Source of the DNA: Marinitoga piezophila KA3
GTDB taxonomy: Bacteria; Thermotogota; Thermotogae; Petrotogales; Petrotogaceae
DNA: 64,000 nt
Direction of reading: 5' to 3'
NCBI RefSeq assembly: GCF_000255135.1
Contig: NC_016751.1
Span: 496,001-560,000, forward strand
The notes beneath the pieces were generated by a model, which had not been told where the DNA came from, ran no database searches, and saw only the letters and a program-made list of their open reading frames with translations. The translations under genes and the position numbers were made by a program. Below, piece by piece: positions 35,413-46,245 of this stretch (the stretch's first letter is position 1; each line of letters opens with the position of its first letter).

Positions 35413-35450
35413 TTTTAAGCACGGTATGATATAATTTAATAAAAGGCTTA

Positions 35451-36209
35451 TTGAAAAATCTTGAATTTTATAGAAAGGGTGATGGAAAAATTAGATTGGA
35501 TATATTTTTAGTTAATAATAAATACGTTGATTCACGTGAAAAAGCACAAAGGCTTATAAAAGAAGGAAAGGTTTATGTAAATAATCAAAAAATTACAAAA
35601 CCATCTAAAAAAGTAGATGAAAATGCTACAATAAAAATTACAGAAACAGAAAAATACGTAAGCAGAGCTGCATATAAATTATTAAAGGCTATTAAAGAAT
35701 TTCAACCTAAAATAAATAACAAAATATGTGTAGACATTGGTTCCTCTACAGGAGGATTTACTCAGGTATTACTGGAAAATGGTGCAAAAAAAGTTTACTG
35801 TATAGATTCAGGAACAAATCAGCTTCATGAAAGCTTAAGAAATAACGAAAAAATAGTTTTAATGGAAAACACAAATGCTCGATACCTTAGAAAAGAAGAT
35901 TTTGAATCTGTAGAATTTTTTACCAGTGATGTTTCTTTTATTTCAATTACAAAAATTATTCCATCAATAAAAGAAATTACTGCTAATAATGCAGAGGGAA
36001 TAATACTCATAAAACCTCAATTTGAATTGGAACCATCAAAATTATCAAAAGGTATAGTTAAAAAGGAAGAATATAGAGAAGAAGCTATAAAAAAGGTTTT
36101 TAATTCATTAATTGAAAATGGATTTGAAATAAAAGGAATGGTAGAATCGCCAATTAGAGGTAAAGACGGTAATATTGAATATCTGGTCTATATAAAGAAA
36201 ATCAATTAA
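35451..36209 (+). CDS. tlyA: TlyA family rRNA 2'-O-methyltransferase
   Basis: The protein of up to 252 residues has an N-terminal S4 RNA-binding domain (about 15-75, RLDIFLVNNKYVDSREKAQRLIKEG) and an FtsJ-like methyltransferase domain (about 80-250) with CVDIGSSTGGFTQVLLENGA as the SAM-binding motif. TlyA proteins methylate ribose 2'-OH groups in 16S and/or 23S rRNA. The start is uncertain: TTG 35451 has only an AAAGG site, while a non-ATG start near 35490 would match the usual family start better. An extended -10 (TGATATAAT) lies about 20 bases upstream of 35451. A weak possibility is a haemolysin-like name carried over from older annotation. Confidence 0.85.
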   Translation: MKNLEFYRKGDGKIRLDIFLVNNKYVDSREKAQRLIKEGKVYVNNQKITKPSKKVDENATIKITETEKYVSRAAYKLLKAIKEFQPKINNKICVDIGSSTGGFTQVLLENGAKKVYCIDSGTNQLHESLRNNEKIVLMENTNARYLRKEDFESVEFFTSDVSFISITKIIPSIKEITANNAEGIILIKPQFELEPSKLSKGIVKKEEYREEAIKKVFNSLIENGFEIKGMVESPIRGKDGNIEYLVYIKKIN

Positions 36210-42953: not shown

Positions 42954-42976
42954 TATAATACTTAATCAAAGGAGGA
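42954..42976 (+). promoter_or_regulatory. Proximal -10 element of the bacteriocin gene
   Basis: TATAAT at 42954-42959 has TTGAAA 19 bases upstream (42929-42934), a longer spacer than usual. It is followed by AAAGGAGGAGG, a very strong ribosome-binding site, before the ATG at 42985. Confidence 0.45.
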
Positions 42977-42984
42977 GGAGTCTT

Positions 42985-43263
42985 ATGAAGAATAAAAATA
43001 TATTTTTTATAGAAATTTTTATAACCCTTAGTCTTTTTAGTGTCTTTTTTACTTTTTCAAGTATTAATTTAGCATCTATGCTTGGAATCTCAAAACATGC
43101 AGCTGAAAAGGTTATAGATATCATTGATACATTTTCAACGGTAACAACAATTATTTCAATTATTACAGCAGTTATTGGAGCAGGAGCAATTACAGCAGGA
43201 CTTGTTGCTGTTGCAAAAAAAATGATAAAAAAATATGGCAAAAGATATGCAACTATGTGGTAA
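42985..43263 (+). CDS. Circular bacteriocin precursor, AS-48/uberolysin-like
   Basis: The 92-residue precursor has a hydrophobic leader of about 28 residues and a core of about 64 residues (Leu29-Trp92). The core is rich in Ala, Ile, Val and Lys, has a net charge near +5 (eight Lys/Arg against three acids), and ends in Trp. It lines up with enterocin AS-48: LASMLGISKHAAEKVI matches MAKEFGIPAAVAGTVL, STVTTIISIITAVIGAGA matches the VTTIVSILTAVGSGG helix, and IKKYGKRYATMW matches KKKGKRAVIAW. Circular bacteriocins are ribosomally made, lose the leader, and are closed head to tail into a bundle of four or five helices that permeabilises membranes. The junction would be Trp92-Leu29. The following four genes fit maturation, export and immunity. 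Confidence 0.9.
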   Translation: MKNKNIFFIEIFITLSLFSVFFTFSSINLASMLGISKHAAEKVIDIIDTFSTVTTIISIITAVIGAGAITAGLVAVAKKMIKKYGKRYATMW

Positions 43264-43276
43264 TCTTTTTTAATTA

Positions 43277-43311
43277 AAAAGGGAAGAATGATTTAATCAT
43301 TCTTCCCTTTT
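43277..43311 (+). promoter_or_regulatory. Long stem-loop between the bacteriocin gene and its maturation genes
   Basis: A perfect 16-bp stem (43277-43292 with 43296-43311) with a 3-base loop lies 13 bases after the stop. The 3' arm ends in TTTT but no further T run follows. It would partly terminate or shield the mRNA, keeping the peptide in excess over the membrane proteins behind it, as commonly seen in bacteriocin operons. The next ribosome-binding site begins directly at its end. Confidence 0.8.
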
Positions 43312-43327
43312 CAAGGAGGAGATAAAT

Positions 43328-44593
43328 ATCAAATTACTCATAAAATATTGGATAAATAATTTTAAAATAGTTGAAGATACATTTATAAACTCCTTTATTT
43401 TTTTGTTCATATATATTTTCATGATCTTAAGTTCTTTTTTTCTATATATTTTTCTTCTAGATAAAAATAATTTTTTAATAATTTATTTTTTTTCATTTCT
43501 ATTATTTGACTATAATTTTCCTAATATTATTTCACTATTAAAACAGTATAGAAATGTACATTATTTAGTATCCAGGGAAGTTACTGCTAAATATGTTATA
43601 TTTACTTTTTTAAGATTGAATCTTTTTAGCAGTATATTTATTATTTCAAATATATTGTTATTTTTATTATATTACAATGATTATAAAAAACTATTATTTT
43701 TGTTAATTAATTTTTTACTTCAAATTACCTTATTTTTTGTGAAAATATATACAAAGAAGGAAAAGTATATACTTATAGTTTTTGTTTTTCTTTATTTATT
43801 GTATATTTTAAAAATAAACATATTATTTTTTATTCCTGTTATTATTATTAATGTTATATTTTTATATCGCACATGGTTTTCACAATTAAAAAATATAATT
43901 ATTAATGATAAAAAGTTTTCAGAATACCTTTTTTATTCAGAAAAAATTACTTCATGTCACTCTTTAATACTTTTTTTTAAGAGATTACCATTAAAAGAGT
44001 ATGCTGAATTCATATTCGTTTGTTTTGGAGCAATTATTACCTATCATTTTTTTGGATTATATTCAGCAGAATATTTTTTAATAATTTTGTTACTAGCAGA
44101 ATTAGAGATAGTTTTTGAAAAAAATTTTTTGAATTTTGACAGAGAATATAGTAAATATATATTTTTTAAAACCACAATACGTCCATATAAAAATTGGTTT
44201 CTTAATTCATATGAATTGAAAATAGGAATTATTTTTACCGTTATTATATTTTTATTTTTGTTTTTTATAGTATTTTCTGAAGGATTAAATTTTTATATTT
44301 TATTATTTTTTATAAATCTTCTTTTACTAATGGTGTACATAGTAAAATCTTATATTTTCGTTTATTACAAATCTCTTGAAAATAAAAGAAAAATAAATCA
44401 TTATTTTTTGTTTGCATTTATAATATTTGTAGCAATAATTTTTCAAGTTCCTGATATGTATAGTAAAATCTTTTTTAAAATCCAAGGGTATCGCAAAATA
44501 TATGGAGAATTCTTTAAAATTACCTTTTTGATGATTTTAAATATATTTAATATCCATAAACTGATATCTGATTATATTTTTAAAAAAAGGTGA
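43328..44593 (+). CDS. Large membrane protein of the bacteriocin cluster, apparent ATC start
   Basis: The protein of about 421 residues has roughly ten hydrophobic helices and is extremely rich in Ile, Phe, Leu and Lys. I recognise no named domain, but its place directly behind the structural gene and its size fit the large multi-spanning B-type protein that circular bacteriocin clusters need for maturation or export. The frame is open upstream of the first standard start (TTG 43403, with no ribosome-binding site) as far as the ATC at 43328, which lies 7 bases after a perfect AAGGAGGA. There is no ATG, GTG or TTG in frame between. I therefore take ATC as the start, with TTG 43403 as the fallback. 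Confidence 0.75.
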   Translation: MKLLIKYWINNFKIVEDTFINSFIFLFIYIFMILSSFFLYIFLLDKNNFLIIYFFSFLLFDYNFPNIISLLKQYRNVHYLVSREVTAKYVIFTFLRLNLFSSIFIISNILLFLLYYNDYKKLLFLLINFLLQITLFFVKIYTKKEKYILIVFVFLYLLYILKINILFFIPVIIINVIFLYRTWFSQLKNIIINDKKFSEYLFYSEKITSCHSLILFFKRLPLKEYAEFIFVCFGAIITYHFFGLYSAEYFLIILLLAELEIVFEKNFLNFDREYSKYIFFKTTIRPYKNWFLNSYELKIGIIFTVIIFLFLFFIVFSEGLNFYILLFFINLLLLMVYIVKSYIFVYYKSLENKRKINHYFLFAFIIFVAIIFQVPDMYSKIFFKIQGYRKIYGEFFKITFLMILNIFNIHKLISDYIFKKR

Positions 44594-44597
44594 ATGT

Positions 44598-45083
44598 ATG
44601 CCAAGAAAAAGACATATTTCTATTTATCTAATATTGTACCTATTTTTATGTTTTGAATTAATATATTTTTATGATAAGATATTTTGTTTATCCGGGGAAA
44701 TATATGCAATACCACAAAAACATAGCTTTAAATTAGCTATTGATATTATATTAAATAATTTAAAAAATTTTATATCTTATATATTTTTATTTCCTTTAAT
44801 GCCAGTATTCTGGATAATTGATCTATTTTCAACAACCTGGAGTATTTATATTGGTATAAAATCAGTAGGTTTATATAATACTTTTGATAAACTTTTTCCA
44901 CATATTGTTATAGAATTTCCAAATTATATTATCTATTCTTATATATCCTATTGCCTTATGCTTAATTTTTATAGATTTAAATACAATGTGATTTTAAAAA
45001 TATTTTCTGAATATAAGAGCATTTTATTAATAAATATTTTTTCTATTATAATAAGTGGGTTTGTAGAAGGTTTAATATCCTAA
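44598..45083 (+). CDS. SpoIIM/DUF95-type membrane protein of the bacteriocin cluster
   Basis: The 161-residue protein has about four helices. Its middle, with LFPLMPVFWIID followed by PHIVIEFPNYII (about 108-119), resembles the SpoIIM/DUF95 family, where a conserved HxxxExP segment sits at the start of a helix. DUF95 proteins are a near-constant part of circular bacteriocin clusters (for example the C proteins of the AS-48, circularin A and carnocyclin A clusters) and are needed for maturation, secretion and immunity. It follows the large membrane protein by 4 bases. It is shorter than standalone DUF95 proteins but similar to bacteriocin ones. Confidence 0.75.
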   Translation: MPRKRHISIYLILYLFLCFELIYFYDKIFCLSGEIYAIPQKHSFKLAIDIILNNLKNFISYIFLFPLMPVFWIIDLFSTTWSIYIGIKSVGLYNTFDKLFPHIVIEFPNYIIYSYISYCLMLNFYRFKYNVILKIFSEYKSILLINIFSIIISGFVEGLIS

Positions 45084-45107: not shown

Positions 45108-45701
45108 ATGCTTGAACTTAAAAACTGCTCTAAGAAATATGGAAATAAAGTTATTTTTGAAAATGTATCCTATACTTTTTATAATAATATATATTGGTTA
45201 AAAGGAGAAAACGGAATAGGAAAAAGTGTATTTCTTAGATGCCTTTCAAATATAGAAGAATTTAGTGAAGGAATATATAAAAATAATTTTAAAAAAATTT
45301 TGTATATTCCAGAATTTTCACTTAATGAAGACTGGCTAACATTAGAAGAAAATATAAGATTATTTATGTATTATCATAATATAAAAATTACAGAAAATAC
45401 CTTTAAAGAGATTTTAAAAAAATTAAATATAAATGATTTTTCCATATTTCCTTATAAAGCGTCTATGGGGACAAATTTAAAAACAATTTTTTCATTAATT
45501 TTTATACCAAAAGTGTGGAGTTTAATTGTAATTGATGAAACTCTTTCTCATATTGATATAAAAACACAAAATATTATATTTAATGAGTTAAAAAAAAGAG
45601 TATCTGAAGGAACAATAATAATATTTACTTATCACGGAATTTTAAATAGTCATAAATTTATAGAATTAACCTTAAAAAAGGAAGGGATATTTTGTGATTA
45701 A
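45108..45701 (+). CDS. Small ABC ATPase of the bacteriocin cluster
   Basis: The 197-residue ATPase has Walker A KGENGIGKSVFLR (about 32-44), a Walker B LIVIDETLSHID (about 143-154) and a switch histidine in FTYHG. The signature motif is altered: the expected LSGGQ region reads KASMGTNLKTIFSL. Small ATPases of this sort pair with the DUF95 protein in circular bacteriocin export and self-protection. It starts at ATG 45108 after AGGAGGAAAATTCTA and overlaps the next gene by 8 bases. Confidence 0.88.
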   Translation: MLELKNCSKKYGNKVIFENVSYTFYNNIYWLKGENGIGKSVFLRCLSNIEEFSEGIYKNNFKKILYIPEFSLNEDWLTLEENIRLFMYYHNIKITENTFKEILKKLNINDFSIFPYKASMGTNLKTIFSLIFIPKVWSLIVIDETLSHIDIKTQNIIFNELKKRVSEGTIIIFTYHGILNSHKFIELTLKKEGIFCD

Positions 45702-46191
45702 AAAAGAACACATTATTTTTCTTTTAACTTATATTGGTGCATTATATATATTTATTTCTTTTATTTTTGAATATTTTCAAAATAATCCTGAAATGAAAAA
45801 AAATATTGTTGATTTAGCTCAAAATATAGATATAAATATTTTATATTTAGATAAAATAATTATAGTTATTTCTTTTATTATTTTTTTCTTTTCATTTGTA
45901 ATAGAGATATGGTTAAATAAATTATTTTTTGATTTTTTCTATTTGAAAATTAAAGAATTAAAGTTAGCAATAGGTATTTTAATAAGTAACATCTTCTCTA
46001 TATTGATAGGTATCTTCCTTTTAAAAATAAAAATAAAATTTTATATATTACTTGTATTTACAAATTTTATTGGAATACTGATAATGATTATTTTATTTTC
46101 TGACGAATTAAAAAATAAAAAATTGTATTATGGTATATTTTTTGGCATAGTATATAGTATAAATTTTGTTATCCATTATTTTGGTAAATAA
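45694..46191 (+). CDS. Four-helix membrane protein, last gene of the bacteriocin cluster
   Basis: The 165-residue protein has about four or five hydrophobic helices and no recognised domain. It starts with GTG 45694 inside the end of the ATPase gene, after AAGGAAGGGATATTT. It could be the membrane partner of the ATPase, or the immunity protein. Immunity proteins of known circular bacteriocins are small (about 50-90 residues), basic and membrane-bound; no such smaller gene is present in the cluster, so immunity may rest here or on the ABC system. Confidence 0.7.
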   Translation: MIKKEHIIFLLTYIGALYIFISFIFEYFQNNPEMKKNIVDLAQNIDINILYLDKIIIVISFIIFFFSFVIEIWLNKLFFDFFYLKIKELKLAIGILISNIFSILIGIFLLKIKIKFYILLVFTNFIGILIMIILFSDELKNKKLYYGIFFGIVYSINFVIHYFGK

Positions 46192-46203
46192 ACCTTATTT
46201 TTT

Positions 46204-46245
46204 AAAATTAATATGGTCACCTTTTTGGTGACCATATTAATTTTA
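46204..46245. terminator. Bidirectional terminator between bacteriocin cluster and amylase
   Basis: An 18-bp perfect stem (46204-46221 with 46227-46244) with a five-T loop and T/A-rich ends serves both convergent transcripts. Confidence 0.9.

Follow-up and report, generated by a model that had tools for sequence, protein, structure and literature searches.

The window analyzed here is a 64,000-nucleotide stretch of the Marinitoga piezophila KA3 genome (2.24 Mb, hereafter G000). On its forward strand lies a bacteriocin operon of five genes. Gene A (42985 to 43263) encodes the 92-amino-acid precursor of a circular bacteriocin and has the Shine–Dalgarno (SD) sequence AAGGAGGA at 42969 to 42976, within AAAGGAGGAGGAG. 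Gene B (43328 to 44593) encodes the cluster's membrane protein of 421 amino acids, which matches gene B of a Clostridium cluster. Gene C (44598 to 45083) encodes a SpoIIM/DUF95-like membrane protein, gene D (45108 to 45701) the ATPase of an ABC transporter, and gene E (45694 to 46191) a small membrane protein that starts at GTG and overlaps gene D. Beyond the operon, at 46203 to 46245, is a long terminator-like hairpin of 19 pairs, followed by a convergent gene that we call alpha-amylase-like from a reading of its sequence. A promoter scan did no better than shuffled sequence (43 against 41.5).

The bacteriocin precursor matches PF09221 (4.2e-26, 91.4 bits against a cut-off of 23.6) and TIGR03651 (67.0 bits, cut-off 30.7). 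The leader is probably about 31 amino acids long; we place the cut site there because NLAS followed by M/TLGIS is conserved in an alignment of three species. Gene D passes the cut-off for PF00005 (28.1 bits against 25), and gene C falls below that for PF01944 (18.3 bits against 26.9). No Pfam or NCBIfam family matched gene B or gene E, a plasmid search with gene B returned no match, and an AlphaFold2 model of gene B built from two sequences reached a pLDDT of 41.4. Judged by its position, gene E probably serves immunity or export. A bacteriocin followed by a large membrane protein, a DUF95-like protein, an ATPase and a small membrane protein is also the arrangement of the circularin A/uberolysin and AS-48 clusters, a layout known under the names cirABCDE. 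As far as sequence can tell, gene B is the second gene of an operon of the circularin/uberolysin type.

It is the start of gene B that drew our attention. Its SD sequence, AAGGAGGAG, spans 43313 to 43321 on the forward strand, the first eight positions being AAGGAGGA once more. Eight bases separate the GGAGG from an ATC codon at 43328 to 43330. From this ATC, a frame free of stops runs for 25 codons to TTG 43403, with no ATG, GTG or TTG in frame between them. A mechanical list of open reading frames starts the gene at that TTG and gives a protein of 396 amino acids; the first in-frame ATG is further on still, at 43421 (codon 32). The preliminary description had proposed the ATC on these grounds, and its coordinates and reading of the frame proved exact. 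It had also held that the TTG has no ribosome-binding site. We found no SD sequence before TTG 43403 or ATG 43421: the duplex formed at the ATC has an energy of −11.6 kcal/mol, and no ATG, GTG or TTG among the open frame's first 45 codons does better than +1.0 kcal/mol. Among the 56 long open frames of the window, gene B is the sole one in which the best start is AUA, AUU or AUC (together, AUH) and the SD sequence matches over 7 bases or more. The motif by itself is not rare, with four matches to AAGGAGGA against 1.87 expected, and the evidence for the start is its place, spacing and conservation. A nearer candidate, ATA 43322, is in frame but was rejected for lying only 2 bases from the GGAGG, which is too close.

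The genus supplies the comparison that the preliminary description had asked for. Gene B is present in three of the seven genus genomes searched (G000 and two of six other species, G005 and G006), and the same three are the only ones to have it among 103 genomes of the phylum. All three junctions share AAGGAGGAGATAAAT, followed by ATC in G000, ATT in G006 and ATC in G005. Over the SD sequence and start region, 26 of 28 bases are identical across the three species, and one of the two that differ is the third base of the start codon itself (C/T/C). The congeners thus keep the SD sequence and its spacing and begin with AUU and AUC, which bears out the choice of ATC in G000. Codons 2 to 25 change far more slowly as protein than at silent sites (pN 0.07, 0.10 and 0.15 against pS 0.24, 0.50 and 0.25 for the three species pairs) and, by this measure, are under purifying selection. 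Codon 5 of the G005 gene is an in-frame ATG, and G006 has one upstream, within gene A; neither is conserved. The G005 cluster (L006:4341-7152) appears to be decaying, since its gene B is frameshifted and no gene C is seen between B and D.

More distant relatives came from a scan of genome contigs with an alignment of the bacteriocin. It returned two loci, L214 in a Ruminococcus metagenome-assembled genome and L215 in Clostridium sp. DSM 8431. Both carry the A-B-C-D-E array in the same order as the window, and with bacteriocin peptides 61 to 70% identical in these clusters, it is probable that the cluster has moved between phyla. The Clostridium gene B is 27% identical to ours (E 4e-12), the BLASTP alignment pairing query residue 1 with subject residue 2, so that its ATG lies one codon upstream of the position of our ATC. 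In the Ruminococcus gene (best segment E 5e-8), query residue 2 pairs with subject residue 4, and the ATG is two codons upstream. Near-cognate in the window, canonical in these two Bacillota relatives: the start codons differ, but with both relatives beginning within one or two codons of the ATC, nothing points to a start at the TTG. Their SD sequences are weaker than ours (AGGAG at long spacing in one, AGGA in the other). In both loci an intergenic inverted repeat can be made out by eye in the unfolded sequence.

Two more conventional accounts of the ATC have to be weighed against this. One has gene B translated from TTG 43403 (codon 26) or ATG 43421 (codon 32), the upstream frame being leader RNA. 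Mechanical calling does choose the TTG, and the ATG at codon 32 is common to all three species. Neither codon has an SD sequence, however, the TTG is missing from both congeners (at codon 26, G006 has TTT and G005 has TGT), and codons 2 to 25 are not only conserved as protein but line up with the N termini of the B proteins from Bacillota. We consider this account very improbable. The other holds that an ATG was misread as ATC in sequencing or assembly. We found nothing in its favor. Three separate genomes read ATC, ATT and ATC between the same flanks, so that one mistake would have had to arise three times, and these genomes have further conserved AUH starts; we give error next to no credence. 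The congener junctions and the constraint on codons 2 to 25 led us to reject both. We hold it very likely that gene B is initiated at AUC 43328, where a perfect SD sequence would set the fMet-tRNA, and the position of the start is well supported. The protein then extends 25 residues beyond the N terminus assigned by ORF calling, a difference of some consequence to anyone expressing or modeling the bacteriocin cluster.

How would such a start work? Initiator fMet-tRNA would begin gene B at the AUC. AUC would lower initiation relative to AUG and expose it to proofreading by initiation factor IF3, and because IF3 discriminates against AUC the yield of gene B should lie below that from an AUG. The strong SD sequence may compensate in part. 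Work on Staphylococcus aureus puts AUU and AUA sites at about 10% of AUG, and up to 30% for one of them in rich medium (PMC13009471); IF3 represses noncanonical starts, the GTC of sigR included (PMC5472188).

The junction between genes A and B adds a layer of RNA structure. Between them, at 43277 to 43311 on the forward strand, is a predicted hairpin of 16 pairs (−21.1 kcal/mol, z −6.9), which may separate the bacteriocin message from gene B. A similar hairpin folds strongly in G005 (z −7.3); in G006, the junction has no such hairpin and folds no better than shuffled sequence (z 0.25). An RNAalifold consensus of the three sequences pairs the end of gene A, stop codon included (43254 to 43264, forward strand), with codons 2 to 5 of gene B (43333 to 43342) in all three species. 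The helix has one change on both sides and, from three sequences, a covariation term of −0.05, so that the pairing is a weak suggestion from a folding model. If the end of gene A does pair in this way, ribosomes finishing gene A may open the start region of gene B. Gene C is probably coupled to gene B in turn, its SD sequence (AGGTGA) overlapping the gene B stop codon. PMC7132975 describes translational coupling in circular bacteriocin clusters, 109 of 119 in number; the words "start codon", "Thermotog" and "Marinitoga" are absent from that paper.

Gene B belongs to a known kind of gene, those with AUH or similar starts behind strong SD sequences. A close parallel is infC, the gene for IF3, which also has an AUH codon behind a strong SD sequence, and whose initiation region in G000 itself is nearly identical to that of gene B. 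The infC start is AUU, AUC or AUA and is under autocontrol by IF3, which represses such starts (PMC5472188). Gene B would have no autocontrol loop because, unlike infC, it does not encode a translation factor. In S. aureus, cvfC1 (AUU) and ccpN (AUA) combine, like gene B, a conserved near-cognate start with an extended SD sequence; they were measured by ribosome profiling and reporters (PMC13009471), whereas gene B is read from comparative sequence in another phylum. Streptomyces sigR resembles gene B in its noncanonical start, strong conserved SD sequence and free third base (GTC/GTT), but its codon is GTC rather than AUH, and IF3 repression has been demonstrated for sigR (PMC5472188). Among the open-licence papers searched, no title or abstract reports a near-cognate start for Thermotogota, nor for a circular bacteriocin cluster. 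A multi-omic paper on Thermotoga maritima revises many start sites; AUH starts are absent from the passages concerned. A further gene of this kind is pcnB.

Is gene B alone in its lineage? Our positive control was infC. It starts with ATT in all seven genus genomes, in the context GGAGGGATAAGT ATT AAA/AAG, from which we take it that the lineage does use AUH after such a context. In eight further family genomes, the corresponding codon is ATA; G052 is ambiguous, and the comparison covers the family less five genomes that the script could not read. Here the start was judged by the known AUH starts of infC elsewhere (PMC5472188). The phoH gene begins with ATT (five) or ATA (two) in all seven genus genomes. 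Of the 14 family genomes outside the genus, 11 gave a reading, and 10 of them have ATT or ATA immediately ahead of CTG, TTG or (in G051) ACG. A gene for an NYN-domain protein has ATC or ATT in seven of seven genus genomes; outside, it has ATG in G044 and TTG in G045, with G052 ambiguous and two genomes unread. In a sister genus, g6, glmU starts with ATA in five genomes and ATT in the sixth, and the same codon in 14 others read (one was unread) is ATG in nine, TTG in three and GTG in two. The ATP synthase epsilon gene of G048 has an AUH start as well. The phoH gene of G000 is at L034:8488-9471, with orthologues at L154 to L173, and glmU of G048 at L107:6597-7949, with orthologues at L133 to L152.

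Protein family models offer a separate view of where these frames begin. The first residue matched by an NCBIfam or Pfam model is 2 in GlmU, the ATP synthase epsilon subunit and CobB, 3 or 4 in the CheB-like protein, 4 in the NYN protein, 5 in FolK, 7 in RsmH and 11 in thiamine diphosphokinase. The PhoH models are uninformative about the start because their alignments begin at 108 to 112. The CheB-like gene has AUH at the best-spaced codon in all six genus genomes with a long match, but we count it as supporting only, since an in-frame ATG overlaps the SD sequence in two of them (G003 and G005). A second candidate AUH start in the window, at 35490 in a TlyA-like rRNA methyltransferase frame (35430 to 36209), was rejected. 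The first in-frame ATG there is far inside, and the congeners open with ATG GAA, in a frame from which G000 departs through an indel within a stretch of A close to the start; the window's frame is a frameshift, a slippage site or an assembly error.

A broader count called for a census. Counting codons at a set spacing had given little signal, and an energy-based census with decoy codons took its place. Five family genomes, sampled at 380 to 464 kb each (2.04 Mb in all, 1787 long frames), yielded 94 frames with an SD sequence of −9 kcal/mol or better and no canonical start at the right distance. In 51 of the 94, the codon facing the strong SD sequence is AUH, against 22.1 expected from codon use, and at −10.5 kcal/mol the count is 38 of 53 against 11.2. 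Over three threshold settings, the excess comes to 1.4 to 1.6 AUH starts per 100 frames, a rate estimated on about one fifth of each genome, in which cases seen in a single genome may include frameshifts of the TlyA sort. Neither control has an excess: in G025, of the same order but another family and the only outgroup genome, AUH was found in 5 of 23 frames against 4.4 expected, and in the plasmid pMP118, in none of seven against 1.7. Family and controls differ with p 3e-4 (1e-5 at the strict setting), values to be read knowing that frames common to several genomes are not fully independent. Over six genomes, decoy codon groups ranged from 0.37- to 1.63-fold, AUH stood at 2.1-fold and CTG at 3.8-fold (7 against 1.8).

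AUH starts thus appear, from sequence comparison, to be used routinely in the family. The preliminary description had called near-cognate starts rare; for the family of G000 this fails, in view of infC, phoH, the NYN gene, glmU and the census. Gene B would be one of a recurring set. We lean toward a stronger statement, that AUA, AUU and AUC (and some CUG) are ordinary starts here for about 1.5 genes in 100, perhaps 30 per genome and far above the handful elsewhere, and that they are missed by gene callers and make up an IF3-sensitive set including cell-wall, ATP synthase, stress and bacteriocin functions. If that is true, the working rule that confines AUH to a few genes is broken, automatic annotation has the wrong N terminus for dozens of genes per genome, and nature has provided a set of IF3-sensitive genes for study.

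Why such codons persist is a separate matter, and here our opinions are more tentative. The preliminary description had suggested that a near-cognate start would suit a low-copy membrane protein behind an abundant peptide; a fuller form of the idea would make the AUC a deliberate low-dose device specific to this operon, through which selection holds B at low levels beside the bacteriocin. The codon is AUY in all three genomes, and the hairpin between A and B occurs in two of three species. There is also a precedent for separating A from BC post-transcriptionally in as-48ABC, whose transcript is cut into two fragments, TA and TBC, with different half-lives (PMC3942455). The rationale is weakened because housekeeping genes (glmU and the G048 ATP synthase epsilon gene), as well as phoH, also use AUH, and because the weaker SD sequences of the ATG-start relatives mean that the net rate of initiation may be similar or equal. 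We regard the low-dose device as possible but doubtful. For the family as a whole, mostly neutral drift might suffice: a strong SD sequence would let AUG lose its third base, and the codon would then turn over freely. The glmU start, AUA or AUU in one genus and ATG, GTG or TTG at that codon elsewhere, fits this, as do the many census cases seen in a single genome. Free turnover sits less easily with infC, phoH and the NYN gene, which keep AUH in seven of seven genus genomes, the latter two shifting among ATT, ATC and ATA without ever becoming ATG in the genus. Drift has, to our minds, a little under an even chance of being the main cause.

Two smaller observations belong here. IF3 of G000 aligns well to solved IF3 chains, and on that account we see no altered IF3 behind these starts. 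G052 carries a more distant circular-bacteriocin-like gene at L010:1486-1710 and, about 9 kb from it, a second copy with an internal deletion (L012:1438-1599).
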